From NCBI GenBank assembly GCA_019359675.1, contig JAHHGX010000090.1, positions 1 through 64,000 of the forward strand: 64,000 nucleotides of DNA, in the 5' to 3' direction. This document shows positions 872 through 63,459 of this stretch, piece by piece. The DNA comes from Calothrix sp. FI2-JRJ7. GTDB lineage: Bacteria > Cyanobacteriota > Cyanobacteriia > Cyanobacteriales > Nostocaceae. A program made the translations under genes and the position numbers. Numbering within the stretch: the stretch's first letter is position 1; the number at the start of each line of letters is the position of its first letter. The notes under the pieces are model-generated. The model did not search any database. It saw only the letters and a list, made by a program, of their open reading frames with translations, and had not been told where the DNA came from.

Positions 872-1198
872 TTTCGATTTTGCATTCGTGTTGTTAATCT
901 CAAACGCTTTATTCGCGAACTTGTTGGTTTAGACCGCAGTGCAGCTAAAAAAGCATTTAATAAGTATCTACAAACTCAAAATTTTGGCGCCAATCAAATA
1001 CGCTTTGTGGCAATGATAATCGATCAGCTAACTCAAAACGGCATTATGGACCCAGGAATGCTTTATGAGGCGCCTTTCACAGATTTACACTCAGATGGGT
1101 TAGATGGGATGTTTAACAATGATGCGGATATTGAAGGAATTATTACAATTGTAAGTGAATTCAATAAAGGTGCTGATGTTAAATTTGGCGCCGCATAA
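872..1198 (+). pseudogene. hsdR: Type I restriction enzyme R subunit, C-terminal fragment
   Basis: The open frame begins just after a stop at 869-871. It reads RFIRELVGLDRSAAKKAF, then NQIRFVAMIIDQLTQNGIMD, then a YEAPFTDLHSDGLDGMF stretch, and ends with a TAA at 1196-1198. These match the C-terminal helical region of HsdR-type (EcoEI-like) restriction subunits, where a predicted domain follows the helicase lobes. Only about 108 of the usual 800-1,000 residues remain; the endonuclease and DEAD helicase parts are absent. An ATG at 1007 would give a 63-residue product, which is unlikely to be a functional gene. It is read as the 3' remnant of a lost type I restriction gene. Confidence 0.7.
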
Positions 1199-1212
1199 TT
1201 GGAGATAAAGCT

Positions 1213-1725
1213 ATGTCAAGGATAGTAGATTTTTATTTAGGCGCTGCTCCTGATGCAGAGGGACGTAAAATAGAGCAAATCTGGTCTTGGGACTACTCGG
1301 AACTCGAATATGTCCATGATTATATTCAATGGTTATTTCCTTTAACCGATGCTAGTAACTTTAATTCTAAGGCACCAATTTTAACAGAGTCGGATATTGA
1401 GCAGTTTCGAGCAAGTGATAAACTCAAGGGTCAATTACTCACTTCGTTTAAAATCATGCTTGGTTTTTACGGCTTACAATGCCTTGAGGATGATAATAAG
1501 ATAGAAATTAAATTAGCAGATACGTTTGAAGTACGCAAACAAGAGTGGTTACACTGGGGAGACCATAACCATTTGCGAATCACTAGAATTTTAAAAAGTT
1601 TGAAGTTGTTAGGGTTAGAACAATATGCCCAAGCGTTTTTTAAATGTTTGGAGCAAATATATAATGTTGAGAGAGGTAGTATCGACCCGCGCAGCTACCA
1701 ATTTTGGAAACGTGCTGTTATGTAG
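1213..1725 (+). CDS. OGFr-domain protein
   Basis: This 170-residue protein begins MSRIVDFYLGAAPDAEGRKI and carries the signature LEYVHDYIQWLFPL at about residues 33-46. That is the hallmark of the opioid growth factor receptor (OGFr) conserved region, found in scattered bacteria as a short stand-alone protein of unknown function. The domain spans nearly the whole protein. A purine-rich ATTGGAGATAAAGCT precedes the ATG and gives a good ribosome binding site. It starts 14 bp after the hsdR fragment on the same strand, so it may have been the distal gene of a restriction operon. No signal peptide or membrane segment is seen. Confidence 0.85.
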   Translation: MSRIVDFYLGAAPDAEGRKIEQIWSWDYSELEYVHDYIQWLFPLTDASNFNSKAPILTESDIEQFRASDKLKGQLLTSFKIMLGFYGLQCLEDDNKIEIKLADTFEVRKQEWLHWGDHNHLRITRILKSLKLLGLEQYAQAFFKCLEQIYNVERGSIDPRSYQFWKRAVM

Positions 1726-2120
1726 AGGCGCCCTTGCCAAATTACCCCTTGCTGTATTATGATTTGTAGCATATAATGAAGAGAACTGCTCACGCAGAGG
1801 CGATATGATAGCTCTACGAGGAGTCCAAAGTCATGAGTTTAGTACGCGGGCATAAAAATTAAATAGAGAGTACCCCAAGAAAAGGATGATTGTGAGGCAG
1901 AATGCCCGTCCACATGTGAGAATTACATCCCCTCTCTATATAGCTATTACCCCAATTTAATAGCACCCTCTTGTAGGGTGGGCATCCTTGCCCGCCCTGA
2001 AATTATAAGAGACAGGCAGGGGTGCCTGTTCCACAAGATAATGTTAAAGAGACAGGCAGGGGTGCCTGTTCCACAAGATTGTCAACAATTCAGAAAATTT
2101 AAATATAAGGTCAAGTTGTT
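1726..2120. other. Intergenic, repeat-rich
   Basis: No gene was found. The first half has no clear structure. The second half (from about 1975) is a cluster of dispersed repeats directly upstream of the EF-G paralogue, so any promoter for that gene must lie within or just after the repeats. Confidence 0.5.
1975..2079. repeat. GGGTGGGCATCCTTGCCC / ACAGGCA...TGCCTGT repeats
   Basis: A GGGTGGGCATCCTTGCCCGCCC copy is followed by two nearly identical 33-bp units (2007-2039 and 2047-2079, period 40). Each contains the inverted repeat ACAGGCA-GGGG-TGCCTGT and ends in TTCCACAAGAT. Relatives occur at 131-160, 13737-13757, 46625-46652 and 55531-55596. Confidence 0.85.
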
Positions 2121-4127
2121 ATGATTCCCCGAACCCGTGTCCGTAACATCGGTATTTCTGCACATATCGATTCTGGTAAAACAACAATTAGCGAGCGGAT
2201 TCTTTATTACACGGGTAGAATTCACGCGATTGAAGAAGTACGTGGTGGTGGAAAAGGCGCCACTATGGATTACATGCCGGAAGAAAAAGCGCACGGTATC
2301 ACAATTACATCTGCTGCAACTACTTGTATGTGGCACGATACCCAAATTAATCTGATAGACACACCTGGACACGTTGACTTTACTATCGAAGTTGAGCGTG
2401 CGCTACGTGTATTAGATGGTGCGGTGATGGTGTTATGTGCGGTTGCGGGGGTGCAGTCGCAGTCAATAACGGTAGATAGGCAAATGAAGCGCTATCGTGT
2501 ACCGAGAATTGCGTTTATTAACAAGATGGATAGAACGGGCGCCAATCCGTTTACAGTAGTGCAAGCGATACGCGATAAATTACAACTGAATCCGCTACTC
2601 GTTCAATATCCAATTGGTAAAGAAAACGAATTCCAGGGAATTATTGACCTTGTAGAGATGACTGCAAATTTCTACTCCGGTGAAGCTGGTGAAAGCTGGG
2701 TGAAAAAAGAAATTCCTGATTCACTTATGCAGGAAGCGTTAGAAGCGCGTGAGAAAATGCTTGATGCGTTGTCGCTGTTTTCTGAACCAATGACTGAAAA
2801 GTTATTAGCTGGTGAAGATGTTGACAACGAATTGATTTGGGAGACTATTGGCAATGCTACTAAGAATCTTGAATTAGTTCCTGTACTACTTGGTTCTGCG
2901 TTTAAGAATAAAGGTGTGCAAAACTTGCTTGATGCTGTCGCGCACTATCTTCCGTCTCCTGTTGAGCGTGAGGTAGTAAAGACATCTGACAACATTAGTG
3001 TGTATGCTGAAGTTGAGGCACCTTTAGTGGCGTTAGCATTTAAGCTGACACTAGAATCATTTGGGCAATTAACTTACACACGTATTTATTCTGGCGCCTT
3101 AAAGCCTGGTGATATAGTATACAATGCTCGTACACAACAGCGGGTGCAAATTGGTAGATTACTACGAATGCACGCTAACAAACGCGAGGAAGTAAAGATT
3201 GCTGTAGCTGGAGATATTGTTGCACTTTTAGGAGTTGATTGTGCAAGCGGTGATACTTTTTATACCGGAGAGGCGCCTGTTTCTTTAGAAGCAATGTTTG
3301 TTCCAGAACCTGTAATTTCGCTTTCGGTAGTACCCAAGAAACAAGAAGACAGCGATAAATTATCTAAAGCACTCAATCGTTTCCAAAAAGAAGACCCGAC
3401 TTTCCGCGTCAGTGTTGATGCAGAAACAGGTGAAACTTTGATATCGGGAATGGGTGAACTACACTTAGAAATTTATATTGAGCGTATCAAGCGTGAGTAT
3501 AATGCTGAGATGTATGTTGGTAAACCTGCTGTTGCTTATCGCGAAACTATTGGCAAAAAAGTTGCTTTTGACTATCGATTAAAGAAACAATCAGGAGGGC
3601 CAGGTCAATATGCTCACGTTACTGGTTGGATTGAACCGTGCGATGAACCATTCGTATTTAATAATCGTGTAGTTGGAGGCGCCATTCCTAGTACATTTAT
3701 TACAGCTTGTGAAAAAGGTTTTATCGAAGCTATGCAAGCTGGAAAAATAGATGGTTATCCTGTAGTTGGCGCCAAAATTGTAGTTGACGGTGGTTCATAT
3801 CACCAAGTAGACTCAAACGAATTTGCATTCCGAATGGCAGCAAAACAAGCATTTGAAACAGCATTTACCCAAGCAAACCCCCACTTACTCGAACCTATTA
3901 TGCATGTTGAGGTAGAAACACCCAACGAATATGTAGGAAGAGTACAAGGTGACTTATCATCACGAAGAGGTTTGCTATTAGGGTCACAAACAATGCAAGG
4001 GTACTCAGTCATTCAAGCAGAAGTTCCACTAGCACAAATGTTTGGCTACTCAACAGCACTCAGGTCAATCACCTCTGGTATGGCAACCTTCACAATGGAA
4101 TTTGCCAGCTACCAAAGTAAAAATTAA
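2121..4127 (+). CDS. Elongation factor G paralogue (mitochondrial EFG1-like)
   Basis: A 668-residue translational GTPase. The G1 loop is AHIDSGKTT (residues 14-22), with Ser where standard EF-G has Ala. The switch I region is HGITI (58-62), G3 is DTPGH (80-84) and G4 is NKMD (about 134-137). Domains II-V follow, including the conserved MGELHLEI and the GGPGQYAHV loop of domain IV. The AHIDSGKTT loop, the GGGKGATMDYM segment before switch I and SAATTCMW resemble mitochondrial EFG1 more than canonical bacterial FusA. A cyanobacterium needs a standard fusA elsewhere, so this is probably a second EF-G with a translocation-specific or condition-specific role; that is inference. It stands alone behind a repeat cluster. 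Confidence 0.9.
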   Translation: MIPRTRVRNIGISAHIDSGKTTISERILYYTGRIHAIEEVRGGGKGATMDYMPEEKAHGITITSAATTCMWHDTQINLIDTPGHVDFTIEVERALRVLDGAVMVLCAVAGVQSQSITVDRQMKRYRVPRIAFINKMDRTGANPFTVVQAIRDKLQLNPLLVQYPIGKENEFQGIIDLVEMTANFYSGEAGESWVKKEIPDSLMQEALEAREKMLDALSLFSEPMTEKLLAGEDVDNELIWETIGNATKNLELVPVLLGSAFKNKGVQNLLDAVAHYLPSPVEREVVKTSDNISVYAEVEAPLVALAFKLTLESFGQLTYTRIYSGALKPGDIVYNARTQQRVQIGRLLRMHANKREEVKIAVAGDIVALLGVDCASGDTFYTGEAPVSLEAMFVPEPVISLSVVPKKQEDSDKLSKALNRFQKEDPTFRVSVDAETGETLISGMGELHLEIYIERIKREYNAEMYVGKPAVAYRETIGKKVAFDYRLKKQSGGPGQYAHVTGWIEPCDEPFVFNNRVVGGAIPSTFITACEKGFIEAMQAGKIDGYPVVGAKIVVDGGSYHQVDSNEFAFRMAAKQAFETAFTQANPHLLEPIMHVEVETPNEYVGRVQGDLSSRRGLLLGSQTMQGYSVIQAEVPLAQMFGYSTALRSITSGMATFTMEFASYQSKN

Positions 4128-20190: not shown

Positions 20191-22377
20191 TTACTGGGCT
20201 TGAAAAACAAAACTAAAGCTTGCCCAATTATTAACATTCCATACGTAAGCATCACTCGTATCTTTTTTGTCTTTATATGCATCATGTAAATCTTGCAAAA
20301 GTGCAATTGCAACTTCGCTAGGATTAGATACAGGCACAATTCGCTGTTGCTCTACTCTTGCTACTTTTGTTACAGATAGTGCAGCAAGGGTTTGAGTGAA
20401 AGGCGCCGTACTAAGAATTAGTTGAACTTCCCACGAGTCGCTAAGTCCTTGTATAATCCACTCAAAGCCTGGGTTGGTTTGGGGAACGGTACTAGTGGCG
20501 CCAGGTTCAATAGTGATATTTTGCAGTGATGGATTAGATGGTGCATCTTCACTCTTGTTTTGCCAAGCGTATAATCCAAAGGCATTTTTACTACTATCTA
20601 ACCCTAGCAGCATTAAATAAAGAGTTTGATTCGATTTATTTTCAACTTGATATTGAATACGATTCCCTATAGAGAGTTTATTTAATTCTATCGTCGTAAG
20701 CACTTTAGTGCTAGCTTGACCTCTAAGAGTTTCCCTTATCATTATTGGTTGCGAACTGGCGCCATCGTGAGAAGCTACTACTGTTTCGAGTGTAACTTTG
20801 ACATTTAGTAGGGATGAAGCTTCGTTTTCAGTAATACGCCATAATTTTGCGGCAAGTAAAGTTTGTAATTTTGGCGCCAGTCTTTGCGCTGCAACTTTTA
20901 CCGCTTCTCCAACTTCACCTACGGTATTGGTAATTAATTCTCCACTGAGGGTAAATAAACCATAACGACTAGATGATAGCATTGCACCAGTTTCCTGGGG
21001 TTTATCTAGCAATTTACCAAATATATAATCTGTGGGTTGTTCTGCGACTGTACTCGAAATATGATTGAGTGTTGCAAAAGCACTAGTTGCGTCAACACGT
21101 TCGATACGTTCTAATTTATCTAGTCCTATATTAAGCTGGATGTTTTTTGGAATAACGCGCACCACTTCTTGAATTAATTGTCCAACCTGTAAAGTAATTG
21201 GAGTTTCTGTACTAGAGTCAGTACGAAGTGAAGCTTTTGCCGTTAACCCAGAGCGTACACGCAATACCAAATTTGGTGATGAAGCTGAATTTGAGATAAC
21301 AGCAAACCTAGAGTTGGCGCCCATATATTCTAGTACATGCGCTGGTACACCTCCCAACCAAAGCTGTACTGCTTTACCATCTTCTTCTACAGCAGTAATA
21401 GCACCTTCGGCGCCACCTGAACGTTCAGATTCAATTTGAGATTGAATATTAATATCGGCACCTATACCGAAATTACTGGCAAATGTCCCTAACTGCTGAA
21501 TTTTTTTACTATTTATTAAAGTTGACTGTTGATTGCTCCCTAGTTGCTGTACGGTTGAATTAACTTTTTGCAAACCGAATTGCACTGTAGTGGTTAGGTT
21601 ATTTTCCCAGAGGTATTGCGTCAAAGCATAAGTAAATAAACCACTACTAAACCCTGACATTTGTAGCTCTCTAGCTGACTGATTAGGATTTGAGGTTGCA
21701 GATAATATTAAAGCAGGAGGTGTGGTAATTGCTTGACTTTTAAGTTGTTTTTGATACTCTAATTCATCGTCAGCGATATTAATATTATCAGGTATTTGAA
21801 CCGCACGAACTTTTAAACCACAATTTTTGCTGTGATTAATACTATAACCACTATCAAGTACAGCAATTACATTTTCTGTTTTGAGTGCGTGTAAAATTAG
21901 TTGCAGTGTTTGTTCTAATAAATAATTAGCTTCACCTTTCTTTTCAAGACTATCGTCAAATAATATTAGTGCTTTTTGTGACTTAACATAACTAGAGTAA
22001 CCACTGAAGTGAAAATAAACGACATCACCAGGTTTAACTTGACTGTTCAAATCATTAAAAGCTTTCTGAATTAAACTCTTACTAGCTTGCTCATCAGTTA
22101 AACATAAAATATCAGACAGTTGAAAACCAAAGCGATGAATTAAGAGTTGCTTTTGTAATTCGACATCTGTCAAGCAGCCATTCAAAGTGGGAAACTGAGA
22201 GTAGTTATTAATGCCTACAAGCAAAGCCAACTTACGCGAACTTGTTTGAGCCAAAGCTTGATAGTAATTATTTCCCAAACTCAGCCATTCAGCTTCAGTT
22301 ATTCCCAATACTGCGAGTACTGAGCCAATACGCTGCAAAAAAGTTCGCCGTTTCATCATTCGATACCTCAGCCCCAT
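20191..22377 (-). CDS. Tat-exported pseudo-orthocaspase (caspase-like p20 domain, dyad lost)
   Basis: A 728-residue protein. The N-terminus has a twin-arginine signal (MMKRRTFLQRIGSVLAVLGI), so the start may be the Met at residue 6 or 7. The caspase p20 fold follows: RKLALLVGINNYSQFPTLNG, HRFGFQLSDILCLTDEQAS and a strand before the catalytic His. In active family members the His lies in a SGHG-type motif and the Cys in D(S/C)CHSG. Here they read FHFSGYSS and VLDSGYS, so His is Tyr and Cys is Gly (or Ser, depending on alignment). This matches the known class of cyanobacterial pseudo-orthocaspases. The 400-residue C-terminal part is a beta-rich DUF4384-like region. An exported binding or scaffold role is inferred. 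Confidence 0.82.
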   Translation of the reverse strand: MGLRYRMMKRRTFLQRIGSVLAVLGITEAEWLSLGNNYYQALAQTSSRKLALLVGINNYSQFPTLNGCLTDVELQKQLLIHRFGFQLSDILCLTDEQASKSLIQKAFNDLNSQVKPGDVVYFHFSGYSSYVKSQKALILFDDSLEKKGEANYLLEQTLQLILHALKTENVIAVLDSGYSINHSKNCGLKVRAVQIPDNINIADDELEYQKQLKSQAITTPPALILSATSNPNQSARELQMSGFSSGLFTYALTQYLWENNLTTTVQFGLQKVNSTVQQLGSNQQSTLINSKKIQQLGTFASNFGIGADINIQSQIESERSGGAEGAITAVEEDGKAVQLWLGGVPAHVLEYMGANSRFAVISNSASSPNLVLRVRSGLTAKASLRTDSSTETPITLQVGQLIQEVVRVIPKNIQLNIGLDKLERIERVDATSAFATLNHISSTVAEQPTDYIFGKLLDKPQETGAMLSSSRYGLFTLSGELITNTVGEVGEAVKVAAQRLAPKLQTLLAAKLWRITENEASSLLNVKVTLETVVASHDGASSQPIMIRETLRGQASTKVLTTIELNKLSIGNRIQYQVENKSNQTLYLMLLGLDSSKNAFGLYAWQNKSEDAPSNPSLQNITIEPGATSTVPQTNPGFEWIIQGLSDSWEVQLILSTAPFTQTLAALSVTKVARVEQQRIVPVSNPSEVAIALLQDLHDAYKDKKDTSDAYVWNVNNWASFSFVFQAQ

Positions 22378-22505
22378 TTTATATCAGATAACAGATTAAA
22401 GGGCTAAAATCCTGATTGTAAAGCTTCAGCAAATACTGTTTTTTAAAAATAAATACTGTATATAGGAAAGGGGTAAGGGTAAAAAAGACCTTTCCCCTTT
22501 ACCCT

Positions 22506-23684
22506 TTAAGCATTCACCGGGACTTGCATTGCTCTAGCTAGCTCCGCAGCAACTTCTGGACGCGAAAACTCTGGTGGTGGTAATTCTCCACGACGTAACA
22601 TTTCTCGAACTTTTGTACCTGACAGGTGAACTCGTTCTTCTTGAGTGCTGGGACTGGTTTTGGTTGTCGCCATTTGCTTTGTACGCAAACAGTAAAAAGC
22701 ATGTTCAAACATCATTGGGGTAATGCCAAGTTCTCCAGGTTTGAACTCGTCAAAAATATACTGTGCATCGTAGGTACCGTAATAGTCACCAACTCCTGCA
22801 TGGTCGCGTCCAACGATAAAGTGGGTACAACCATAGTTTTTGCGGATAAGAGCATGGAATATTGCTTCTCTTGGACCTGCGTAGCGCATTGCTGCTGGGT
22901 TAATTGCTAAAATTACCCTGTCTTTGGGGTAGTGATTTTCGAGCAAAATTTCGTAGCAACGCATCCGCACGTCAGCGGGGATATCATCTTCTTTCGTTGC
23001 TCCCACTAGAGGATGCAGAAACAAACCATCTACAGTTTCCATTGCACACTTTTGAATGTATTCGTGTGCGCGGTGGATAGGGTTACGAGTTTGAAAACCT
23101 ACAATAGTTCGCCAACCTTTTTCTAAGAACATTTGGCGTGATGCTGCTGGGTCTATTTGATATTTTGGAAATAATGGGTGAGCATTACGTTCTAAAAGCC
23201 ATACATCTCCAGCTAGATGTACTGGGTCTTGGCTATAGAGAACTTTTACACCTGGGTGCTTTTCGTCATCAGTACGGTAGACTTTAATAGCTTCGCGTTC
23301 TTTGTTATAAGTATACTTTTCGGTTAGTAGCAATACACCAATATACTTACCTTCGCGGTTATCTAAACGGATATAGCTACCCTCAGTTAGGGGTGCAGCA
23401 ACTTCTTCTGACACTGAGAATGTAACTGGAATTGACCAAGCGGCGCCCGATTCAAGGCGCATGTTCTCAACAACACTGTTATAGTCTGCTTGGTTTAAAA
23501 ATCCTGTTAGCGGACTAAAACCGCCAATGGCTATCATTTCCAAGTCAGACACCGCACGCTCGTCGAGTTGGACTCGTGGTAAATAATCAGCCTTTGAAAG
23601 AAATTCTTCTTTCTGTGCAGGAGTGGCGATGCGGTTAACCAACTCTCCACCGTGGGGGGCAATGGCTTGTTTCTGGTAGCTCAA
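22506..23684 (-). CDS. sat: Sulfate adenylyltransferase (ATP sulfurylase)
   Basis: About 392 residues. It makes adenylyl sulfate from sulfate and ATP, the first step of sulfate assimilation. [13 protein letters not shown] (with the catalytic HxxH-like site) and [13 protein letters not shown] are the two nucleotide-site signatures; [15 protein letters not shown] closes the fold. The length matches single-domain bacterial Sat without an APS kinase domain. The start is taken as TTG 23684 ([13 protein letters not shown]) because AAGGA lies 6 bp upstream and cyanobacterial homologues start there. The longer frame from 23723 has no ribosome binding site and would add 13 atypical residues. Confidence 0.93.
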
Positions 23685-23809
23685 CTTGATTCCTTCTTTC
23701 CTGTGTAATGCTATGAATGTCAAACTATTTATTAACTTATCATTTTGCCTGCCTAAGAGAGAAAAAGATTAAGAAAAGGGGAAATTGTATTTTCTCTTCC
23801 CCTTTGGCT

Positions 23810-26335
23810 TTAAACTTCAGCTACTGCTTCTTCTTCTCTATCAATGAACATTTGTACGCGAGCGCGATAATCTCTAAGAGTACTATCTACCCAGTCGCGG
23901 TCATTGCTATTTATATAAAGATGTACTAGAGGTTCTGACGCATCAGGTAGTACCAATATCCAGCTATCATCGTAAGGTTGACAGATTTTTACACCGTCAA
24001 TAAGTTCTAGGTTTTGTGCTGGGTGAGTTTCTACTAAATACCGCATCAAGGCGCCTTTGACAGTCCAAGGACAGCGAACCGTATAAGTTTTGTGGATAAC
24101 ACGGGGTAGTTCAGAACGTACTGATGCTAACGAACGTTCTTGAATTGTCAGCATTTCGATAATTTTGGCAATGCAAAACATGGCATCGAAACCAGGATGT
24201 AGTTCAGGGAAAATAAAGCCTGTATCGCCACTGCCACCAAGCATAACATTTGGATTTTTGTTACATGCTTCCATTAACGCGGTTGGGTTAGCTTTGGTAC
24301 GGATAACTTTACCGTCATGGCGCCGAGCTATTTGTTCAACAGCACTCGAAGCATGAACAGGAACAACAACGGCGCCGCGTGGATGTGAAGTTAACACCAT
24401 ATCAACCATTAACGCGGTTAATATCTCACCACGGATAGGCATTCCAGACTCATCAACTAAAATTAGCTGTTCACCGTTTGCTGATACTTGAATACCAAAG
24501 TTAGCTTTTAAAGCTTCGACCACATGTCCTAACTGCGTTAACAATGCTTCGCGGTTCATTGCCGACATCGCGCTTTTGTTCAAACTTGCATTTAGTACTA
24601 CTGCATCGGCGCCAAATTGGTCGAGCATTTGGGGTAGTACTGCACCGGACACTGCGTAAACATAGTCAATTACAACTTTGGCGCGACTATTACGAATTGT
24701 GTCAATATGTAGAAATTTTTCAAAAGCCATGCAATAAATGTCAGCAACCTGGCTAGGGTATGCCACATCCCCAACTTCGTGAATTAGGGCGCGTCGCATA
24801 TCTTCCTTAAAAAATGCCCCTTCGATTTTCTTTTCTTTGGGTTTAGAAAGGTTGATACCTTTATCATCCATAAATTCAATTAGGATGTAGTCCGCACGGT
24901 CGGGGTGTACGCGCACATGAATTCCACCAGCTACACCCATTGTAGGAATAACAGTACGCGCGATAGGGATAGCGGTTGCATCAAGGTTTTGAATATCAAT
25001 ACCTACCGACATCAAACCCGCAATCAACGACCGTGTTACCATGCGTGAAATGTTACGTTGGTCACGCGATACTGTGACTTTTGAACCAGGTTTGAGTGTT
25101 GAACCGTATGCGGCGCCTAACTTGACGGCAAATTCGGGAGTTATATCAATATTTGCTAACCCTTGAACTCCACGCTGTCCGAATAAATTGCGTTGTGCAG
25201 TGTTACCCCAAATTAAGTTGATGTTTAACGTGGCGCCTGATTCAATTTTCTTACTGGGCCATACTCTTATAAACGGGCTAATTTGTGCCTCTTCTCCAAC
25301 AGTCGATAATGAACCTACGACTGCCCCTTCGAGTACATGCGCGCGACGGTCTACTCGTGTTCCTCGTGCTATTACGCAGGCGCTTAAGTGAGCTTCATCA
25401 CCAAGTATTGCACCATTCCAGACAATTGGTCGCTTGAGATTAGCATCGGCGCCGATTGTGACATTATCACCAACTACTGAACCAGCTTCGATTTGAACGC
25501 GGGCGCCAATCCGACAGTTATCACCAATAACTACAGGAGGCTCAATTTTAGCAGATTGGTCAATGTAAGTATTTTGACCGACCCACAACCCAGGTGAGAC
25601 TTCGTTATAGGCAACATCTAACTTGACTTTACGGTCGAGAGCATCGTACTGTGACTCACGATAAGCATCCAAGTGCCCGACATCGCACCAATACCCTTGG
25701 GCAATGTAGCCATACATCGGTTCACCCTTGGCTAGAAGTAAAGGAAATAAAAATGAAGAGAAATCAGATTCGGTATTCTCTGGCAAATAATCTAAAACTT
25801 CTGGCTCTAGAATATAGGTACCAGTATTAACAGTATCGGAAAAAATTTCGCTCGTCGAAGGTTTTTCTAAAAATCGGTTGATTCGACCGTCTTTGTCGGT
25901 AATAACAACTCCAAACTCAATCGGATTTGGGACGCGCGTTAATATCAAAGTAGCCTTTGACTTTTGCTGCTTGTGGAATTCTATTGCCCCAGTTAAGTCA
26001 AAATCTGTTATACTATCGCCACTAATTACTAAAAAAGTTTCATCAAGAAGCTCGGCAATGTTTTTAACGCAGCCCGCCGTACCTAAAGGCTGGTCTTCTT
26101 CGACGGCATAGGTCATTTGTACTCCAAAATCGGCGCCGTCTTGGAAATAATCACGCAATGCATCGGGGAGATAATGCAAAGTCGCGATAACTTCGTTAAT
26201 ATTATGCCGTTTGAGAAGATTGATGATGTGTTCGGCAATGGGACGATTTAGAATTGGCACCATTGGCTTAGGCAGGTCACAAGTAAGGGGACGAAGCCGC
26301 GTCCCTGAACCCCCTGCCATTAATACTGCACGCAT
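23810..26335 (-). CDS. Mannose-1-phosphate guanylyltransferase-like protein fused to a degenerate phosphomannomutase
   Basis: An 841-residue fusion. Residues 1-230 are a sugar-nucleotidyltransferase: [16 protein letters not shown] and [12 protein letters not shown] bind NTP, and [12 protein letters not shown] carries the metal Asp. Residues 250-370 are hexapeptide beta-helix repeats. Residues 375-841 follow the phosphomannomutase/phosphoglucomutase fold, but the phosphoserine loop (usually TASHNP) is replaced by a [13 protein letters not shown] stretch and the metal loop (usually DGDxDR) reads GGSGDTGF. Mutase activity is therefore unlikely. Long fusions of this kind occur across cyanobacteria. 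The likely role is GDP-mannose or another NDP-sugar for polysaccharide, with the mutase part regulatory. It follows sat by 85 bp on the same strand. Confidence 0.88.
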
Positions 26336-26941
26336 AAATCCTCCTTAGTTATCTTTCCGACTTAGTGCTGTTTATAGACGAGGTAGATAGTTTAAGGTTT
26401 TTCACCTACTGTCTATAGTCTCCTACGGAAGTTCATGTTTTAGGAACTTTCTATAGGCGCATAAGCCTCGAACGATTGATATCTCGCTAATCGAAACACT
26501 AGCTTGTTTTTGAAGAGAAAATCAAGAAGGCACAAATATGAGAGCTTAACAATTTTTAGCACTTCAGATTTTATGCAGTTTTAGAATATATCACATAATG
26601 TATCTGGATGTATCTGGAATGGGCGCCTGTCGAGTTGTAGTTATCCCATATAACAAGATACTGGCTGTTCGCACCCAGATTAGACTACACTAATATGTAT
26701 AAACTATGTGCTTGATAAGAAAAACTATCTAAGTGTAGAATAACTTGTCATTCTGAGCGCAGCGTAATGCGGAGATTTGCCGGAGGCTAGAATCTAAAGT
26801 TTCCTTATATACTAAGATGCTACCCTTCGGGAAATCCTTCGGATTACATTACATTCAGCATGACAATTAAAGACACTTTTAAAACATCCTCTAGAAATAC
26901 TTAGCTAACATTTTTACCACTTGTCTTTGGAGTAAATAGGA
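26336..26941. other. Divergent intergenic region with an inverted-repeat element
   Basis: 606 bp without a gene. At 26745-26866 an element has imperfect inverted ends (TTGTCATTCTGA ... TTCAGCATGACAA) around a small internal hairpin region rich in CTTCGG. It looks like a non-coding dispersed repeat of the type with TTGTCATTCTGA ends. The rest holds the upstream region of the guanylyltransferase gene (minus). Confidence 0.5.
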
Positions 26942-27133
26942 ATGTCTACTTTAATTGGTGTTGTATTTGTAGTTGTTTACGCCAGCGGTATTTGGAAATT
27001 CTGGAATGGGTTTGAAAGAACAAACTTTCAAAGGTCATTACCAAACCGCTTAATTTTGTCATTACTATGGCCAGTATTATTAATTGCAAATAAATCTTAT
27101 CGTCGCAATTTTACAAAAGCCCTCAAAGGCTAA
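26942..27133 (+). CDS. Small membrane protein, 63 residues
   Basis: MSTLIGVVFVVVYASGIWKF gives one membrane segment. A polar loop (NGFERTNFQRSLPNR) and a second segment (LILSLLWPVLLIA) follow, with a basic tail (NKSYRRNFTKALKG). The positive-inside pattern puts both ends in the cytoplasm. GGAGTAAATAGGA precedes the ATG as a strong ribosome binding site. The family is not named here; it looks like a conserved cyanobacterial small protein because its codon use and motif pattern are orderly. Confidence 0.7.
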   Translation: MSTLIGVVFVVVYASGIWKFWNGFERTNFQRSLPNRLILSLLWPVLLIANKSYRRNFTKALKG

Positions 27134-27283
27134 ATAATTTGTAAAAATTTCATTCTTTTGTATTGTGGAATGGGCTTTCTCTTGCCCTTTCCAAAGTGAG
27201 AATTATATTAAAAATGTCGCTCTTCCTGCTTTGAAGACTACTTAACAATATCGCTTGACTTATTATATTTCGTAATATAAAAT

Positions 27284-36380: not shown

Positions 36381-36428
36381 AAAAAATACCAAAGCTAATT
36401 TTACACATTACCAACAATCTAGGTATTA

Positions 36429-36775: not shown

Positions 36776-36805
36776 GCAGAGACGTTACATGTAACGTTTC
36801 TACAT
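36776..36805. repeat. TGTAGAGACGTTACATGTAACG palindrome copy
   Basis: GCAGAGACGTTACATGTAACGTTTCTACATG is a copy with a few changes of the 30-bp palindrome. Confidence 0.8.
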
Positions 36806-37069: not shown

Positions 37070-38650
37070 ATGTCTAAAGTTCTCGTTTCCGATCCAATTG
37101 ACCAAGCTGGGATAGATATACTATCTCAAGTCGCTACCGTCGATGTCAAAACGACATTAAAACCAGATGAACTAGTAAACATCATCGGTGAATACGATGC
37201 GTTGATGATTCGTTCAGGTACCCGTGTTACAAAAGAAATTATTGAAGCTGGTACAAACTTGAAAATCATCGGTCGTGCGGGTGTTGGTGTAGATAATGTC
37301 GATGTTCCAGCCGCGACACGCCAAGGTATTGTAGTAGTTAATTCCCCTGAAGGCAATACTATTGCTGCTGCGGAACATGCACTAGCAATGATGCTTTCCT
37401 TGTCACGTCACATTCCAGATGCAAATGCGTCGGTTAAACGTGGTGAGTGGGATCGCAAAACTTTTGTTGGCGCCGAAGTTTATAAAAAAACTTTGGGTAT
37501 TGTGGGTTTGGGCAAAATAGGTTCCCACGTTGCTGCTGTTGCTAGAGCAATGGGAATGAAGTTGCTTGCTTATGACCCATTTATTTCCACCGAACGCGCG
37601 GAGCAAATTGGCTGTCAGCTAGTAGATATGGATGTACTCGCACAACAAGCCGATTATATTACTCTACATATTCCCAAAACTCCCGAAACCACGCATTTAA
37701 TTAATGCCGAATTATTGGCGAAGATGAAGCCAACCACTCGAATTATAAATTGCGCGCGTGGTGGCATTATTGATGAAGCCGCGCTTGCAAGTGCAGTTAA
37801 AGAAGGTAAAATAGCAGGCGCTGCGTTAGATGTATTCGAGTCGGAGCCGTTAGCCGAATCAACTTTGCGTGAAGTCGGCAAAGATATAATTTTGACACCG
37901 CACTTAGGCGCCTCCACAACCGAAGCCCAAGTCAACGTAGCAATAGACGTTGCCGAACAAATACGCGACGTATTGCTTGGACTACCAGCACGGTCGGCAG
38001 TAAATATACCAGGATTGGGGCCTGATGTACTAGAGGAACTTAAACCCTATATGCAACTAGCAGAAACGCTTGGTAGACTAGTTGGGCAGCTAGCGGGTGG
38101 AAGAGTTGAATTACTCAACATTCGATTGCAAGGGGAAATAGCAACAAACAAAAGCCAGCCTTTAGTCATTGCAGCATTGAAAGGGTTACTGCATCAAGCT
38201 TTGCGCGAACGAGTTAATTACGTAAACGCCAGCATTGAAGCCAAAGAACGAGGAATACGAGTAATTGAAACTCGTGATGCTGCTGTTCGTGATTACGCAG
38301 GTTCACTTCACCTCGAAGCAACAGGTAACTTGGGTACCCACTCCGTAACAGGCGCCTTATTAGGTGACGGAGAAATTCGCCTTACCAACATGGATGGTTT
38401 CCCAATAAACGTTCCTCCAACTCAGCACATGCTATTTACCCTCCACCGTGACATGCCAGGAATTATTGGTAAATTAGGTTCCCTTTTGGGTAGCTTTAAT
38501 GTCAATATTGCCAGTATGCAGGTAGGTCGCAAAATCGTTCGCGGTGATGCGGTAATGGCACTCAGTCTTGATGACCCTCTACCCGATGGCATCTTAAGCG
38601 AGATTACCAAAGTACCTGGAATCCGCGATGCGTATACAGTAAATCTATAA
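37070..38650 (+). CDS. serA: D-3-phosphoglycerate dehydrogenase
   Basis: A 526-residue long-form (type I) PGDH, first step of serine synthesis from 3-phosphoglycerate. [20 protein letters not shown] is the NAD-binding Rossmann loop; [11 protein letters not shown] and [14 protein letters not shown] hold the substrate Arg and catalytic region. [10 protein letters not shown] carries the catalytic His with its Glu partner upstream (VFESEPL). After residue 320 come the allosteric substrate-binding and ACT domains ([21 protein letters not shown]), so serine feedback is possible. Nothing is missing. Confidence 0.96.
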
Positions 38651-38658
38651 CCAGCTTG

Positions 38659-38725
38659 TAGGGTGCGTGACGCTACTTTGTAACTTCGTTTTGTTGCACA
38701 ATTGTAATAGCGTCACGCACCCTAC
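38659..38725. repeat. GGTGCGTGACGC hairpin element
   Basis: TAGGGTGCGTGACGCTA and TAGCGTCACGCACCCTA are exact reverse complements, 32 bp apart. It lies 8 bp after the serA stop and may end its transcript. It is a sister of 35232-35296. Confidence 0.85.
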
Positions 38726-38726
38726 C

Positions 38727-38749
38727 GTAACTCCTAACTCCTAACTCCT
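38727..38749. repeat. TAACTCC heptamer repeat
   Basis: Three tandem TAACTCC units follow the hairpin element immediately before prmA. It is the same STRR type as in the rbcL-rbcX spacer. Confidence 0.8.
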
Positions 38750-38758
38750 AAGAAAGCC

Positions 38759-39679
38759 GTGGCTAACACTTGGTGGGAAATACAAATAACCTGCGAACCT
38801 GAACTTGAAGATTCGATTTTTTGGCGCCTAGAAGATTTTGGGTGTCGTGGAACTGCAAGCGAACGAAAAGGGGACGTGAATTTAGTTCGGGCATATTTGC
38901 CGCAACTAAAAGTACATTTAATCGATTTGGCGGCATTATCATTATTATTGCGCCAAGATGCATTATGTATTGAATTACCACCTCCCACTTTACAGTGGCA
39001 TTTAATTGATGAGCAAGACTGGGCAAGTAGTTGGAAGCAATATTGGCATCCTCAAGAAATTGGTGATAGATTCCTGATTAACCCAGCATGGCTACCCATG
39101 CCTACAGACTCTGACCGATTAGTAATTAAACTTGACCCAGGTGTCGCTTTTGGTACAGGAAATCATGCCACCACTCAGCTTTGTTTAGAAGCCTTAGAAA
39201 TGCGATTTAGTGACTATGGCACATCTTTTACAGGTGAGAACAGTACACTTGATGATGTGGTAATTGCGGATATAGGATGCGGTTCTGGTATACTTTGTGT
39301 TGGTGCAATTTTACTCGGCGCCAAAAAAGCTTATGGAGTTGATACCGACCCATTAGCAGTAAAAGCAACAATGGAAAATAGAATTCTTAATGGTATTGAG
39401 GCAGACCGTTTATTTTCGGCAGAAGGTAGTGCGGAAACTCTAGCAAAAATACTTGAGCAACCTGTTGACGGGATAGTTTGTAATATATTAGCCGACGTTA
39501 TTATTAAGCTTGTACCACAAATAACCGCTATTACAAAACCTACAACTTGGGGTATTTTTAGCGGTATTCTTGTAGAACAATCAAAAGCCGTAGCTGACGT
39601 ATTGGAAAAGCATGGCTGGATAGTTGCTGCACTATGGAAGCGCAAAGAATGGTGCTGTTTAAATGTGCGACGGTGTTAA
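38759..39679 (+). CDS. prmA: Ribosomal protein L11 methyltransferase
   Basis: A 306-residue PrmA, trimethylating lysines and the N-terminus of ribosomal protein L11. The SAM-binding fold shows [16 protein letters not shown] (post-I region) and [21 protein letters not shown] (motif I). [17 protein letters not shown] carries the NxxPY-like catalytic loop (NILAD). The start is GTG, supported by family similarity (MANTWWEIQ), with only a weak AAGAAAG upstream. It is preceded by heptamer repeats, so it may need its own promoter. Confidence 0.93.
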
Positions 39680-39715
39680 AATATTAAATTTTCCTTCGGG
39701 CATGAATAGATTTAT

Positions 39716-40069
39716 TTAATTATTTATAAAGCTCACTTCTATAGGTTTGTTCCGCGTCGCTTTGGTATAGTCACGGTTACTTCTTTTAGAAATGATAATT
39801 TTTTTACCAAATCCCTTATCTCTCAAAATACCAGCAATCTCTTGTGTTGAGGTTAAAGTAGGAGTTGCGGTAGGTGTTGGTGTTTGTTCTACTGGTAACT
39901 GAGCTTCAGATGGTGCATTTGTACTAGATGTAGAATCTGTTGGGGATTGCACACTGTTCGAATTAGTACCAAAACCAAATTGATATGTCCACCAAATACT
40001 ACCAGCACCCAAACCAAATGTAACTAACAGAGCTATGGCAATTCCTATCGAGCTTTCACGCATACTCAT
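39716..40069 (-). CDS. Hypothetical protein with N-terminal anchor
   Basis: 117 residues. One membrane segment (SIGIAIALLVTFGLGAGSIWW) is followed by a Ser/Thr/Pro-rich linker (about residues 37-77) and a short basic C-terminal domain (GILRDKGFGKKIIISKRSNR). It is probably anchored with the tail outside. The family is not recognised. It lies just upstream of a tandem-repeat hairpin element and before trx. Confidence 0.6.
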   Translation of the reverse strand: MSMRESSIGIAIALLVTFGLGAGSIWWTYQFGFGTNSNSVQSPTDSTSSTNAPSEAQLPVEQTPTPTATPTLTSTQEIAGILRDKGFGKKIIISKRSNRDYTKATRNKPIEVSFINN

Positions 40070-40150
40070 AAGACCTAGTTAAACCAAGCAGAATACTTAG
40101 TTCTTTTTTACAATCTTTCTTGGTTAATTACTAGCCATATTTGATACTAT

Positions 40151-40228
40151 TAGCAACGGATAATGAACGGATGTAACGGATGGTTTTTTATAATTGCTTA
40201 TCCGTTACATCCGTTACATCCGTTGCCA
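40151..40228. repeat. AACGGATGTAACGGAT hairpin element
   Basis: GCAACGGATAATGAACGGATGTAACGGAT is mirrored by ATCCGTTACATCCGTTACATCCGTTGC after about 18 bp. A sister element is at 54820-54888. The element sits at the 3' ends of trx (minus) here and chlI (plus) there. Confidence 0.85.
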
Positions 40229-40229
40229 G

Positions 40230-40547
40230 TTATATCATCGTTTCGAGGCGCCGTACCAAGTCTTGTGCTTGTAAAACACCCTCGATTTTGTCTACAGGTT
40301 TTCCCTGTTTGAACAAAATAAGTGTGGGTAAAGCTTGAATACCGTACTGACTAGCTAGTTGCGTGTACTTTTCGGTGTCAATTTTCGCAACACGCATCCG
40401 ACCTTGGAGTTGAGCATTAACTTGTTCCAAAATCTGACTCATTAGCTTGCACGGACCACACCAATCTGCATAAAAATCTACTAACACAGGTACATCTGAA
40501 CTAGATAGCATTTCCTCAAAGCTACTGAATTGCTTTTTTGTAGACAT
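40230..40547 (-). CDS. trx: Thioredoxin
   Basis: A 105-residue thioredoxin with the active site YADWCGPCKLM and the cis-Pro loop QALPTLILFK. It reduces disulfides of target enzymes in the cytosol. The start is taken as ATG 40547 (MSTKKQF); ATG 40556 would add three residues. It is a y/x-type or m-like thioredoxin; the subtype is not certain. The repeat element at 40151-40228 may form its terminator. Confidence 0.92.
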   Translation of the reverse strand: MSTKKQFSSFEEMLSSSDVPVLVDFYADWCGPCKLMSQILEQVNAQLQGRMRVAKIDTEKYTQLASQYGIQALPTLILFKQGKPVDKIEGVLQAQDLVRRLETMI

Positions 40548-40617
40548 AAGATACATGCCTGTTTATTATGGTTTGATATCAATCTTAATTCAAATGCTTT
40601 AATTTCGACCTATTGCG

Positions 40618-41259
40618 TCAAAATGCATTGCCTTGAAACAATTTACCTTCAAGAAGGCGCCTTTTGACCAAACCAGGCAGAATTTTTCCTTTAGCATATA
40701 CCCATCTATTTAATTCCGAAGGTACAGCATCATAATCAGAAGCGTTAACGCGCGCGAGTAATGTAGAGTTAGCGAAGTTAGTTTCACCCAAATTAAACAC
40801 AAAGCTTACAAGCGCATCAAACTGATTTTGATTTAGAGGTACTTTTACAAGCTTATTTACCACAACTTCGGCGCCGCTGACATCCGTGCGTAGAATTTGC
40901 ATCGCGCGTTGACGTGTAATTCCACACTTAAATTCTTCTGGTTCACTACCATTGATGGGGCCGTAATGTACGAGGTGTCCTACTCCAATTGTGGCGTGGT
41001 TTGCTGGGCAGTTGTATAAATTTAAAAATATACCTTCAAATTGAATTATTAACTCCAAACCACGGTCGCTTATTTTATAGGCGCCTTTCTGAACTGGTAA
41101 ATATATAATTTGCCCAATTCTCAACTTACGCGCTTCTGCCTCTGTAAAGAATTGTCCATCTTCATTAGTAATTTCTCGCCAGCGGTTAGCATTCCCCAAC
41201 TCACGCAGCGCAATAGCACTCAGCGTATCACCTGCTTGAATTTTGTAAAAATTATTCAT
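40618..41259 (-). CDS. LysM-lysozyme (GH24) protein
   Basis: 213 residues. An N-terminal LysM domain (YKIQAGDTLSAIALRELGNA, to about residue 55) binds peptidoglycan. A T4-lysozyme-like GH24 domain follows (about 66-210). The catalytic pattern E-x8-(D/C)-x5-T is met by FEGIFLNLYNCPANHAT: Glu, Cys at +9 and Thr at +15; Cys at the Asp position is an accepted variant in the family. No signal peptide is visible, so export is unclear. No other phage genes are near, so this is likely a cell-wall enzyme of the host or a captured endolysin. Confidence 0.82.
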   Translation of the reverse strand: MNNFYKIQAGDTLSAIALRELGNANRWREITNEDGQFFTEAEARKLRIGQIIYLPVQKGAYKISDRGLELIIQFEGIFLNLYNCPANHATIGVGHLVHYGPINGSEPEEFKCGITRQRAMQILRTDVSGAEVVVNKLVKVPLNQNQFDALVSFVFNLGETNFANSTLLARVNASDYDAVPSELNRWVYAKGKILPGLVKRRLLEGKLFQGNAF

Positions 41260-41268
41260 AATAGAAAT

Positions 41269-41670
41269 TTATTGAGAAAATTTACTTAGTAAAACATCAG
41301 GAATTGGACGTGGACGCATTGTTTTAGTATCAACCCATACCCATAAAGCTTCAGCAGTTACTAATAAATCATCTTTGTGTTGTTTACGGATTTCATAACG
41401 TCTACGGGCACGAGTACCGCGAATTTCTTCGAGCCAAGTTGTAATTTCTAATGTATCGCTTGCAACTGCTGAACGTAAGTAATCAATTTCAACCCGTCGC
41501 ATTACAAACACACCACCAAGTTCTTGGTAAAGTTCAAAATTAAACCCTAGTGATTCTGAATGCTCAATCGCAGCTTGTTCAAGATAATTTTGATACACAG
41601 CATTATTTACATGCCCAAGAGCATCCATTTCGTAATGACGAACTCGTAACAGCGTTTGAAATTTTTCCAT
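41269..41670 (-). CDS. 4HBT-family thioesterase
   Basis: A 133-residue hot-dog-fold acyl-CoA thioesterase (YbgC/FadM type). RHYEMDALGHVNNAVYQNYL is the family signature with the catalytic Asp; VEIDYLRSAVASDTLEITTW follows. In cyanobacteria such enzymes include 1,4-dihydroxy-2-naphthoyl-CoA thioesterase of phylloquinone synthesis; that assignment is plausible but not proven. The lysozyme gene lies 9 bp downstream on the same strand. Confidence 0.85.
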   Translation of the reverse strand: MEKFQTLLRVRHYEMDALGHVNNAVYQNYLEQAAIEHSESLGFNFELYQELGGVFVMRRVEIDYLRSAVASDTLEITTWLEEIRGTRARRRYEIRKQHKDDLLVTAEALWVWVDTKTMRPRPIPDVLLSKFSQ

Positions 41671-41676
41671 TTTTAA

Positions 41677-41922
41677 TTATTCGATATTACGTTTTGGAGC
41701 GCAAGATTGAGCGATTGGTTCAATTTTAGCTTTTTGCATTAATTCATCTATTTGTGTCAAAGTACATCTATAGGTAGATGCAAGTAGCTTTTCGGCTTCA
41801 CTTTTTGCTGCTTCTACAGATATACCAAAGCTCATGATTTCTTCATCTAAATTTCCTGTGATGCTCTCAACAGGAACTACACAGATAAATTGCGGTTCGT
41901 TTTGCCTAATTTGTTGTACCAT
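41677..41922 (-). CDS. Hypothetical 81-residue protein
   Basis: A small soluble protein (MVQQIRQNEPQFICVVPVES to the end) with a predicted beta strand at the start and two helices (VEAAKSEAEKLLASTYR). It ends 6 bp before the thioesterase start, so the two are probably co-transcribed. The family is not recognised. Confidence 0.6.
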   Translation of the reverse strand: MVQQIRQNEPQFICVVPVESITGNLDEEIMSFGISVEAAKSEAEKLLASTYRCTLTQIDELMQKAKIEPIAQSCAPKRNIE

Positions 41923-42076
41923 ACCATTTCTTAATTAAGTAATATTAAGATTAAGTTAAGATTGATGTCAAAAATAAGAGTTTCAATATGTATATAACTC
42001 AAATTAGGGAAAATATAAATACAGTTCAAAAAATAGTTCAAAAATAGTTAAGAAAATGTACTTGTGTAATTTACAA

Positions 42077-62082: not shown

Positions 62083-62092
62083 ATATCCTTAA

Positions 62093-62560
62093 TCATTCGT
62101 AAAAATTGTGCGTTGTAGAGACGTTACATGTAACGTCTCTACGACGATTTGATATATTTTTGCCAAACATTAGTGTTACACCAATCTCAGAAGTAAAACC
62201 CCATTTTTCATAGTAAGGCGCCATTTCTGGTAAACACCAAAGTGCAAAATGTTCGACATTGCTTAACTGTGGATGCTCGATTATTGTATGCATTAGTTGC
62301 TTACCGAGTCCAGTATTACGATGAGTTGGCTTGATGATAACATCAAAAATAATCGCTCGATAAACAAAGTCTGTTAAAACACGCGCAAATCCAATTAATC
62401 TATCATTTTTATCTACTAGTCCAATAATAATATCTGACGCTGCTAGCATCTTGACTGTATCTTCGCGTATACGTTTTTTACTCCAAAACTCATTTTTGTA
62501 CAAATCCAGTAAATCACAGATTTGCGATTCGTTTAATTGCGATACAACTTTATGACTCAT
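62093..62560 (-). CDS. GNAT-family N-acetyltransferase
   Basis: A 155-residue acetyltransferase. IGFARVLTDFVYRAIIFDVI forms the central strands and IKPTHRNTGLGKQLMHTII is the acetyl-CoA P-loop (R-x-x-G-x-G/A type). WCLPEMAPYYEKWGF is the C-terminal motif. The natural end is about residue 137; the last 16 residues (RRRDVTCNVSTTHNFYE) come from the 30-bp palindrome at 62114-62143 and its flank. It is 10 bp upstream of the phosphatase-like gene, so both are likely one transcript. Confidence 0.85.
   Translation of the reverse strand: MSHKVVSQLNESQICDLLDLYKNEFWSKKRIREDTVKMLAASDIIIGLVDKNDRLIGFARVLTDFVYRAIIFDVIIKPTHRNTGLGKQLMHTIIEHPQLSNVEHFALWCLPEMAPYYEKWGFTSEIGVTLMFGKNISNRRRDVTCNVSTTHNFYE
62114..62143. 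repeat. 30-bp palindrome inside gene 3' end
   Basis: TGTAGAGACGTTACATGTAACGTCTCTACG; one base from the perfect copies. It lies within the coding frame of the GNAT gene. Confidence 0.9.
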
Positions 62561-62568
62561 AAAAGCAA

Positions 62569-63459
62569 TTAATAAGTGTTCTGCACTAAGCTTAAAAAAT
62601 CAAATTTTTTGAGCATTTCTAAAAATGTAAAAACCGCAGGTACATGAAGCGCATTTTTATGCTCTGCAATACCAATTACGCGGTCAAGAGGTACTGGTAA
62701 ACTGTACACTTGTACTTGTAATGGAATTGGAACAGCAGCTAAACGAGGTAAAATTGCTGCACGCAGTCCTTGGTTAACCATGCTAACAATTGTCGAATCT
62801 TCTTGAATATCGGTAGTTGTATTTAAAGACGGCGCCACTATTTTAAGATGATTATGAAGAATGCGCCCACATGGAGTACAAGGAATCATTACAGGTGAGT
62901 AATTATTCAAAAAATCCCATGTAAGCTGTGAAATATCTATAGCATTAGGTGGAAGCAGTGCAATATACTCATCACGCACAACTTCCCAAACTTCAAATTC
63001 GTCGCTCGTGGGTAAACACGTAATTCCAATATCAGCACGTCCTTGCCGTAAAGCATCTTCTACATCTAAAAAAGCATGACATTCAATGATAGTAACCGCA
63101 ACTTCAGGGAATGAGGCGTGAAACTGCGAAATAGCTTTTGGTAATAAATGTGTTGCCACACTCCGGAATGCGGCAATTCGCACATGACCACCACATAAAC
63201 CTTTGTGTATATTTGCCTCATGTTCGATCATTTCTATATGTTCTAATGCTTGACGTGCATGGTATAAAATGCGCTCTCCTGCGGGTGTTAATAAGGCGCC
63301 ATGTCTACCACGCACAAATAAAGGTACTCCTAATTCTTCTTCTAAAGTTGAAATTGCATGACTAATAGCAGGTTGTGATAAATCGAGTGTTAATGCTGCT
63401 TCACTAAAGTTACCGCAATCAGCAACCGCTATAACTGCTCGAAGCTGAAAAATTTTCAT
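62569..63459 (-). CDS. LysR-family transcriptional regulator
   Basis: A 296-residue LTTR. Winged helix-turn-helix: FQLRAVIAVADCGNFSEAAL, LSQPAISHAISTLEEELGVP, LFVRGRHGALLTPAGE. The effector domain follows (about 90-290). Its target is unknown, but LTTRs usually act on the divergent neighbour, here the DinB-like gene. It is 9 bp upstream of the GNAT gene on the same strand, so GNAT and phosphatase-like genes may form a unit with it. Confidence 0.9.
   Translation of the reverse strand: MKIFQLRAVIAVADCGNFSEAALTLDLSQPAISHAISTLEEELGVPLFVRGRHGALLTPAGERILYHARQALEHIEMIEHEANIHKGLCGGHVRIAAFRSVATHLLPKAISQFHASFPEVAVTIIECHAFLDVEDALRQGRADIGITCLPTSDEFEVWEVVRDEYIALLPPNAIDISQLTWDFLNNYSPVMIPCTPCGRILHNHLKIVAPSLNTTTDIQEDSTIVSMVNQGLRAAILPRLAAVPIPLQVQVYSLPVPLDRVIGIAEHKNALHVPAVFTFLEMLKKFDFLSLVQNTY

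Follow-up and report, generated by a model that had tools for sequence, protein, structure and literature searches.

The 64-kb stretch of the Calothrix sp. FI2-JRJ7 genome analysed here (the window) raises the question of whether the hexamer GGCGCC has taken the place of HIP1, the highly iterated palindrome (HIP) GCGATCGC of most cyanobacteria, which has thousands of copies in most relatives of these filamentous strains, and of what keeps it there. Our best reading is that GGCGCC is an alternative HIP which replaced HIP1 and was driven or selected together with a DNA methyltransferase (MTase) of the BsaHI type.

Abundance and coding context of GGCGCC

An exact search listed every copy of GGCGCC in the window, without assignment of strand. 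Exactly 110 copies were obtained, scattered singly over 986-63300, with first positions at 986, 1069, 1187, 1727, 2256, 2538, 3093, 3272, 3678, 3768, 6020, 6474, 6717, 7760, 10263, 11063, 11406, 11888, 11982, 12021, 14591, 15934, 15984, 16219, 16264, 17258, 18857, 19796, 19995, 20402, 20497, 20758, 20873, 21316, 21409, 23442, 24050, 24319, 24371, 24608, 25112, 25232, 25448, 25502, 26132, 26622, 27719, 28020, 28042, 29265, 29814, 30113, 30521, 30669, 31386, 32074, 34304, 34488, 34513, 35111, 35618, 35819, 35906, 36020, 36167, 37469, 37907, 38351, 38823, 39317, 40247, 40656, 40870, 41080, 42474, 42836, 43157, 43752, 43932, 44779, 45005, 45700, 46081, 46108, 46770, 48059, 48323, 49253, 49715, 52498, 52529, 52748, 52909, 54038, 56432, 56992, 57199, 57420, 57750, 58065, 58863, 59283, 59472, 60163, 60325, 61465, 61720, 62217, 62831 and 63295. 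The original prediction had counted about 110 copies between 985 and 63300, which is correct in number and end, while the start was off by one. Its chance expectation of 3-4 copies was too low, as 100 dinucleotide shuffles gave 5.6 (largest shuffle 12). The GC content, estimated near 39%, was measured at 38.8%, and HIP1, which had not been noticed, is indeed absent from the window. Among the 64 palindromic hexamers, GGCGCC ranks first in the window with a 19-fold excess over first-order expectation, followed by CGCGCG with 4.4. The mean spacing of the sites is 572, with a coefficient of variation (CV) of 1.04.

The whole genome (8.66 Mb in 91 contigs) contains 14,889 copies of GGCGCC, or 1,719 per Mb, and 31 copies of HIP1 against 51 of the reversed control word. 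This bears out the proposal that GGCGCC stands in for HIP1 genome-wide. A Markov count over 464 kb (window and contig C20) gave 20 times the first-order expectation rather than a value near it, and the 31 copies show that HIP1 is not abundant elsewhere in the genome. In 844 kb of this genome (window and contigs C20, C31 and C79), GGCGCC is the most frequent of all hexamers with 1,474 copies, followed by AAAAAT with 1,159. Alternative HIPs are GC-rich palindromes present at about 500-2500 per Mb in genomes with low or near-absent HIP1 (Elhai, 2015), and GGCGCC falls within this description on both counts. The reversed word CCGCGG (8 copies in the whole genome) was rejected as a neutral control, since it is itself avoided and the genome has an MTase beside a gene for an Eco29kI-type nuclease, the specificity of which we take to be CCGCGG.

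GGCGCC occurs in all three reading phases (645, 235 and 356 sites in 584 open reading frames (ORFs) of at least 120 aa within the 844 kb). When synonymous codons were shuffled within genes, 98 copies (standard deviation 9.9) were obtained against 1,236 observed, with an excess in all three phases. Outside these ORFs lie about 237-240 of the 1,474 sites, against 10.8 expected. Both the statement that codon choice does not explain the sites and the one that they occur in genes as well as in spacers were therefore upheld. Sequences on either side of the 110 window copies have nothing in common except that G is scarce before and C scarce after the word. Trivial explanations by base composition, by codon usage or by a dispersed element with GGCGCC in it are refuted by the counts and the flanks, and retain practically no probability.

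The extent to which the word has filled the positions permitted by the encoded proteins was determined in 648 kb of coding sequence. GGCGCC holds 645 of 1,187, 235 of 482 and 356 of 588 such positions (54, 49 and 61% by phase), figures which are somewhat inflated if the peptides themselves arose from the word; 10 other control words fill 0-15%. In genome G318, which belongs to a genus judged to be the sister from nucleotide identity among six genomes and not from a tree, HIP1 fills 126 of 172, 83 of 125 and 54 of 120 permitted positions (73, 66 and 45%). Over the 844 kb the spacing of GGCGCC is near geometric, with a CV of 1.000 and a shortage below 20 bp (10 vs 35); the geometric distribution alone served as reference, as no hexamer of like abundance qualified as a control. 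A set-point of spacing or density was rejected for this genome on this basis. Since the permitted positions are filled to a similar degree and the spacing is near geometric, the limit on both GGCGCC and HIP1 looks like the genetic code and not a distance rule.

Other words of this genome also depart from expectation. In the 464 kb, many palindromes are avoided (GGCC at 0.12 and GATC at 0.13 of expectation), and CCATGG, GAGCTC, GCATGC, GTCGAC, GTGCAC and TGCGCA have no copy at all. CGCGCG is the second over-represented palindrome, with an observed/expected ratio (O/E) of 5.3. It fills 12-15% of permitted coding positions here and about 30% in strain NIES-4105 (G342; pieces L168-L171 and L207-L216), and may there be a HIP of more recent origin that is gaining ground. 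A repeat is also dispersed through the window; it shows up in over-represented 10-mers that overlap one another, among them GTAGAGACGT, GAGACGTTAC and ACGTTACATG, each counted 7-10 times over the two strands together.

Spread of the swap and conservation of the sites

A survey of the family covered 217 genomes, seven of the genus and 210 others. The genus members are Dulcicalothrix desertica PCC 7102 (G339), Calothrix PCC 7103 (G340), HK-06 (G341), NIES-4105 (G342), the metagenome-assembled genome C42_A2020_038 (G343), PCC 7716 (G344) and the genome under study (G000). All seven are swapped, with 7,475-20,380 copies of GGCGCC (1,150-1,719 per Mb) and 31-163 copies of HIP1 (3.6-23 per Mb) each. 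None of the 210 others shows the swap, the highest GGCGCC density among them being about 111 per Mb. GGCGCC has been described as an alternative HIP in Calothrix PCC 7103 and Calothrix D253 (Elhai, 2015; PMC4390886). The word swap is thus already published for a congener, and what is new is its genus-wide extent and persistence. In the literature searched, no other paper named both Calothrix and GGCGCC. Alternative HIPs are argued there to be sporadic, not grouped in clades and not persisting; the spread over a whole genus, at synonymous divergences (dS) of up to about 0.9 in the MTase gene, contradicts this view (of Elhai, 2015).

Positions 22001-42000 of the window (plus strand) served as anchor for alignments, both with the six congeners and with six genomes drawn from five other genera. 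Among the latter, G318 and G319, which form one genus, are closest by nucleotide identity. G318 has no GGCGCC and 335 HIP1 in 400 kb, and four GGCGCC in its whole 7.6 Mb. None of the aligned GGCGCC sites of the studied genome is also GGCGCC in G318 (0 of 29), G319 (0 of 27) or G461 (0 of 23), so that the sites most simply arose inside the genus. The swap itself is most simply explained by a single event in the common ancestor of these seven genomes, a number and order of events that we infer. Conversion of HIP1 into GGCGCC in place found no support, as HIP1 of G318 lies within 8 bp for one of 28 aligned sites.

The fate of individual sites was followed in the window and contig C79, of which up to about 193 of 244 kb could be aligned to a congener. 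Against G342, 137 of 168 GGCGCC sites were kept (0.815; all-hexamer average 0.483). When G342 was compared with five ingroup genomes, GGCGCC ranked first of 1,039 hexamers in conservation (0.845 observed, 0.450 expected). The six bases of the word diverge by 2.5-5.3%, the 24 flanking positions by 6.6-20% and, among these, both adjoining ones by 18%. Third codon positions differ in 71 of 1,168 cases inside sites (6.1%) and in 25,347 of 101,758 outside (24.9%), and coding GGCGCC was kept in 0.859 of 597 cells (other coding hexamers 0.493).

Such conservation restricted to the hexamer is what would be expected from selection on site function. Each intact GGCGCC would be slightly beneficial, for example because it is bound by a protein of the nucleoid, of replication or of repair, or because it serves as a landmark when methylated. 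HIP1 would have done the same job, and the word would have changed with the MTase repertoire. The persistence of GGCGCC over a dS of about 0.9 and the similar saturation of HIP1 in G318 favour this explanation as well. It also agrees with the Gly-Ala pairs, in which all synonymous near-misses at the sixth base (C6) are reduced (GGC-GCT, GGC-GCA and GGC-GCG at 16, 14 and 5 against 60, 71 and 29 expected), a pattern that fits a force seeing the whole word. Near-geometric spacing, hence no regular distance kept, argues against selection, as do the lack of a known binding protein and a proteome footprint suggestive of a cost to proteins (see below). Selection is a possible explanation, somewhat less likely than the one proposed below.

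The losses carry a signature of their own. Of 38 losses in single genomes, 27 are changes of GGCGCC to GGTGCC or GGCACC, i.e. C3 to T; inside the site, C-to-T change is 12 times as frequent at C3 as at C5, whereas a ratio of 2.3 is seen when these trinucleotides lie outside sites. This excess points to C3 as the base that would be methylated (GGmCGCC). Polarised gains on single branches numbered two, too few to be used. The predominance of the C3-T exchange among losses and apparent gains between congeners would also suit a Vsr-like very-short-patch (VSP) repair of the T:G mismatch at a methylated site, converting GGTGCC into GGCGCC. In E. coli, VSP repair at Dcm sites over-represents the methylated word, and the present case would be alike in that a presumably methylated word is enriched through repair. 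It differs in that the T-containing near-miss is not depleted. VSP repair should deplete GGTGCC and spare other near-misses, but in the 464 kb GGTGCC/GGCACC has a first-order O/E of 0.98 and all other near-misses 0.26-0.66. Moreover, it could not act on C6 or on transversions, which makes VSP repair very unlikely.

In stretches without a congener alignment, GGCGCC has densities of 949 and 1,331 per Mb; the corresponding values for aligned ones are 1,788 and 1,688 per Mb. A somewhat lower density there, together with the genome-wide filling of permissive positions, could be expected of a DNA-uptake word spread by natural transformation, of the type known in Neisseria and Haemophilus. The unaligned stretches are still strongly enriched, and the link between HIPs and MTase targets (Elhai, 2015) is not expected of an uptake word. 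Little credence is given to this alternative.

The BsaHI-type methyltransferase

A search of the genome with the PF00145 profile returned nine matched stretches, among them five long ORFs (P0001-P0005). P0002 (G000:C79:135478-136428, outside the window) is a BsaHI-type 5-methylcytosine (m5C) MTase with a match to TIGR00675 and is 60% identical to P0001. Each of the six congeners has an orthologue of P0002, with an identity of 81-98%, and second copies resembling P0001 were found in G000, G340, G342, G344 and partly in G341. Ratios of nonsynonymous to synonymous divergence (dN/dS) of 0.05-0.14 in 15 pairs from six orthologues (HK-06 left out; dS up to about 0.9) indicate that P0002 is under purifying selection in the genus. 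In six of the seven genomes its neighbours are a RuBisCO-like and a glycosyl-hydrolase-like (GHL10) gene; HK-06 differs.

According to PMC2413257, a conserved R, followed two residues later by G or A, stands ahead of the TL motif in GRCGYC MTases, and M.BsaHI methylates the central C of GRCGYC. R-x-G in P0002 and R-x-A in P0001 precede TI with the right mutual spacing, one residue off the published numbering in a count by eye. By homology, both proteins are predicted to methylate GGCGCC within GRCGYC. Methylation of the central C fits the predominance of C3-to-T changes among the losses. A GGCGCC methylase had been predicted from the window: an m5C MTase was found with no HindVP/BsaHI-type nuclease adjoining, but its BsaHI/HgiDI family would recognise GRCGYC and not strictly GGCGCC.

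P0002 and P0001 are related to MTases of the BsaHI/HgiDI/HindVP restriction-modification family. Motifs of HindVP/BsaHI-type restriction endonucleases were detected near 67 of 95 MTase loci outside the genus (flanks of 1.5-4 kb), a sample in which some loci were fetched, and so counted, twice; two of these endonucleases were scanned and correspond to PF09519. None of these motifs was detected in 42 stretches of the studied genome (884 kb) and 79 of the genus (1.35 Mb), MTase loci included, no genome-wide PF09519 search having been run. Unlike many relatives elsewhere, the MTase of this genus lacks an adjoining HindVP-type nuclease, and the cognate nuclease that would mark a type II restriction-modification system was not found beside it.

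Close relatives of the MTase, defined by a match at E 1e-100 or below, occur in 52 of the 210 family genomes outside the genus (partial in G210, broken in G380, with a stop in the match in G191 and G303). These genomes have 0-277 copies of GGCGCC and at least 574 of HIP1 each. The only other family genome with less than 25 HIP1 per Mb is G449 (30 in 3.2 Mb), which has 15 GGCGCC and no close relative of the MTase. Across the order, a match was obtained in 63 of 291 genomes, the studied one included (G210 and G221 partial), and HIP1 was counted in 15 genomes chosen by hand. G136 (family f21; L267) combines the MTase (63% identity) with 81 HIP1 and 872 GGCGCC (CCGCGG 9) in 6.6 Mb, possibly an early stage of the same swap. 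G059 (family f8; L279-L281) has 74 HIP1, 9,489 GGCGCC in 3.8 Mb and a BsaHI-type MTase of 54% identity. As a clean second case it is weakened by a GC content of 55% (46 kb), a GGCGCC O/E of only 3.4 and a stronger enrichment of AGCGCC/GGCGCT (6.0); its word is perhaps the degenerate RGCGCC. No nuclease is visible at the MTase locus of G059 or G136. G007, with low HIP1 (134) and without the MTase, has GGCGCC at the level of its congeners. It seems that neither the loss of HIP1 nor the MTase alone is enough, and cases with both together are few (three).

Several side observations concern these genes and genomes. Genomes G170, G008 and G037 (family f9) have 1,031-3,403 GGCGCC alongside abundant HIP1 and without a close BsaHI-type MTase. 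P0006, a truncated m5C MTase of 139 aa at G000:C89:72833-73129 (L011), may be what is left of a HIP1-type MTase that has been lost. The cytosine MTase P0005 (G000:C61; L009) lies beside the gene for an Eco29kI-type nuclease and next to one that encodes pPIWI_RE domains.

Proteome footprint and proposed origin

The swap goes with a shift in the proteome, in which Gly-Ala is up and Ala-Ile and Asp-Arg are down. Compared with proteins of G318, Gly-Ala has the highest z-score of 287 dipeptides (1.35-fold, +4.9) and Ala-Pro, the second pair encoded by GGCGCC, is up 1.20-fold (+2.6). The three lowest scores belong to Ala-Ile (-4.4), Asp-Arg (-4.3) and Ile-Ala (-3.5), all encoded by HIP1. Gly-Ala stands at 1.05-1.11 of expectation in three sets from the genus and at 0.74-0.90 in four others, and Asp-Arg at 0.84-0.90 against 1.05-1.29. 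By title or abstract, no earlier report of such a footprint was found among the matches listed from an incomplete literature collection.

Taken as observed, the sites ask for a force that recognises the whole six-base word, irrespective of reading phase or of the distance between copies. This force would have less effect in noncoding DNA and be connected with a GRCGYC MTase. A repair-linked drive may have supplied it. The ancestor would have possessed a restriction-modification pair for GRCGYC of the BsaHI type, like that of some relatives, with GGCGCC nearly absent. HIP1 would then have been lost, and afterwards the nuclease, leaving a solitary MTase that probably methylates C3. From there on, a process seeing the intact or methylated hexamer would have favoured changes that complete the word and opposed those that break it, until the positions permitted by the proteins were half full. 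Most likely this process would be a methylation-linked mismatch-repair bias as proposed by Elhai, acting through a hypothetical repair protein. Methylation-directed mismatch repair fits both the link with the MTase and the gain of completed words. We give this account a probability of roughly 0.5 and place it slightly ahead of selection, in view of the random spacing and of what looks like a cost to the proteome.

A number of results weigh against this account. Repair alone leaves the conservation of the six bases above their flanks unexplained, unless sites are regained fast, and the repair protein of the proposal is itself hypothetical. In Elhai's model (PMC4390886), density should not rise much beyond 1 per 1,000 nt and a second copy of the MTase is critical; the random spacing (CV 1.00) contradicts the former, and no second copy is visible in G339 or G343, two of the seven genomes. 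The MTase alone is not sufficient for GGCGCC, because the 52 family genomes with a close relative stay low in the word and keep HIP1. Conversely, G116 has 2,365 GGCGCC in 2.2 Mb (HIP1 1,980, CCGCGG 1,104) without such an MTase. The conservation rank of GGCGCC drops to 12 of 1,394 in a closer comparison from G344, and conservation is weaker at noncoding than at coding sites, with 0.643 of 42 noncoding cells kept (0.443 for other hexamers in noncoding DNA). In absolute terms, the C3-to-T rate in the site is 4.2%, while GCG elsewhere reaches 13.4%, so that deamination can be argued in relative terms only. In the proteome, Arg-Ser, coded by HIP1, is nearly equal (0.94 here, 0.98 in G318) and Arg-Arg little changed (1.22 and 1.15). 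Ala-Ile is at 0.97 in pooled pieces of G319, G461, G302, G459 and G456 (16,613 aa), and even the control Ala-Gly varies between 0.94 and 1.28 across the four outside sets, which are small except for G318. The Gly-Ala contrast may come partly from avoidance of GGCGCC in HIP1 genomes.

With the GGCGCC of PCC 7103 and D253, the present case shares the word, the density class, the near-absence of HIP1 and the GRCGYC-type MTase, which PCC 7103 has in two copies (Elhai, 2015; PMC4390886). It departs from that account in being genus-wide (7 of 7), in the two genomes without a visible second MTase copy, in its random spacing and in being apparently limited by the proteins. Like HIP1, GGCGCC is palindromic, GC-rich, associated with an MTase (Elhai, 2015) and similarly saturated; unlike HIP1, which goes with GATC and CGATCG MTases, it is a different word accompanied by a GRCGYC-type MTase.

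There has long been no agreed role for HIP1, and a genus in which the word has changed is a natural experiment. The change of word with density, saturation and conservation kept separates the properties of the word from those of the process. A word that fills half of its permitted positions and goes along with a shift in dipeptide usage would also be relevant to models of codon usage and phylogeny. Tentatively, HIPs might be seen in general as the product of an MTase-coupled molecular drive that fills synonymous space and then leaks into the proteome, and not as functional sites at a set density; a whole genus could then change its word, rewriting dipeptide usage, after losing HIP1 in the presence of an orphan GRCGYC MTase. 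The repair-linked drive predicts that GGCGCC carries m5C at C3 and that loss of P0002 would alter the rates of gain and loss of this one hexamer.

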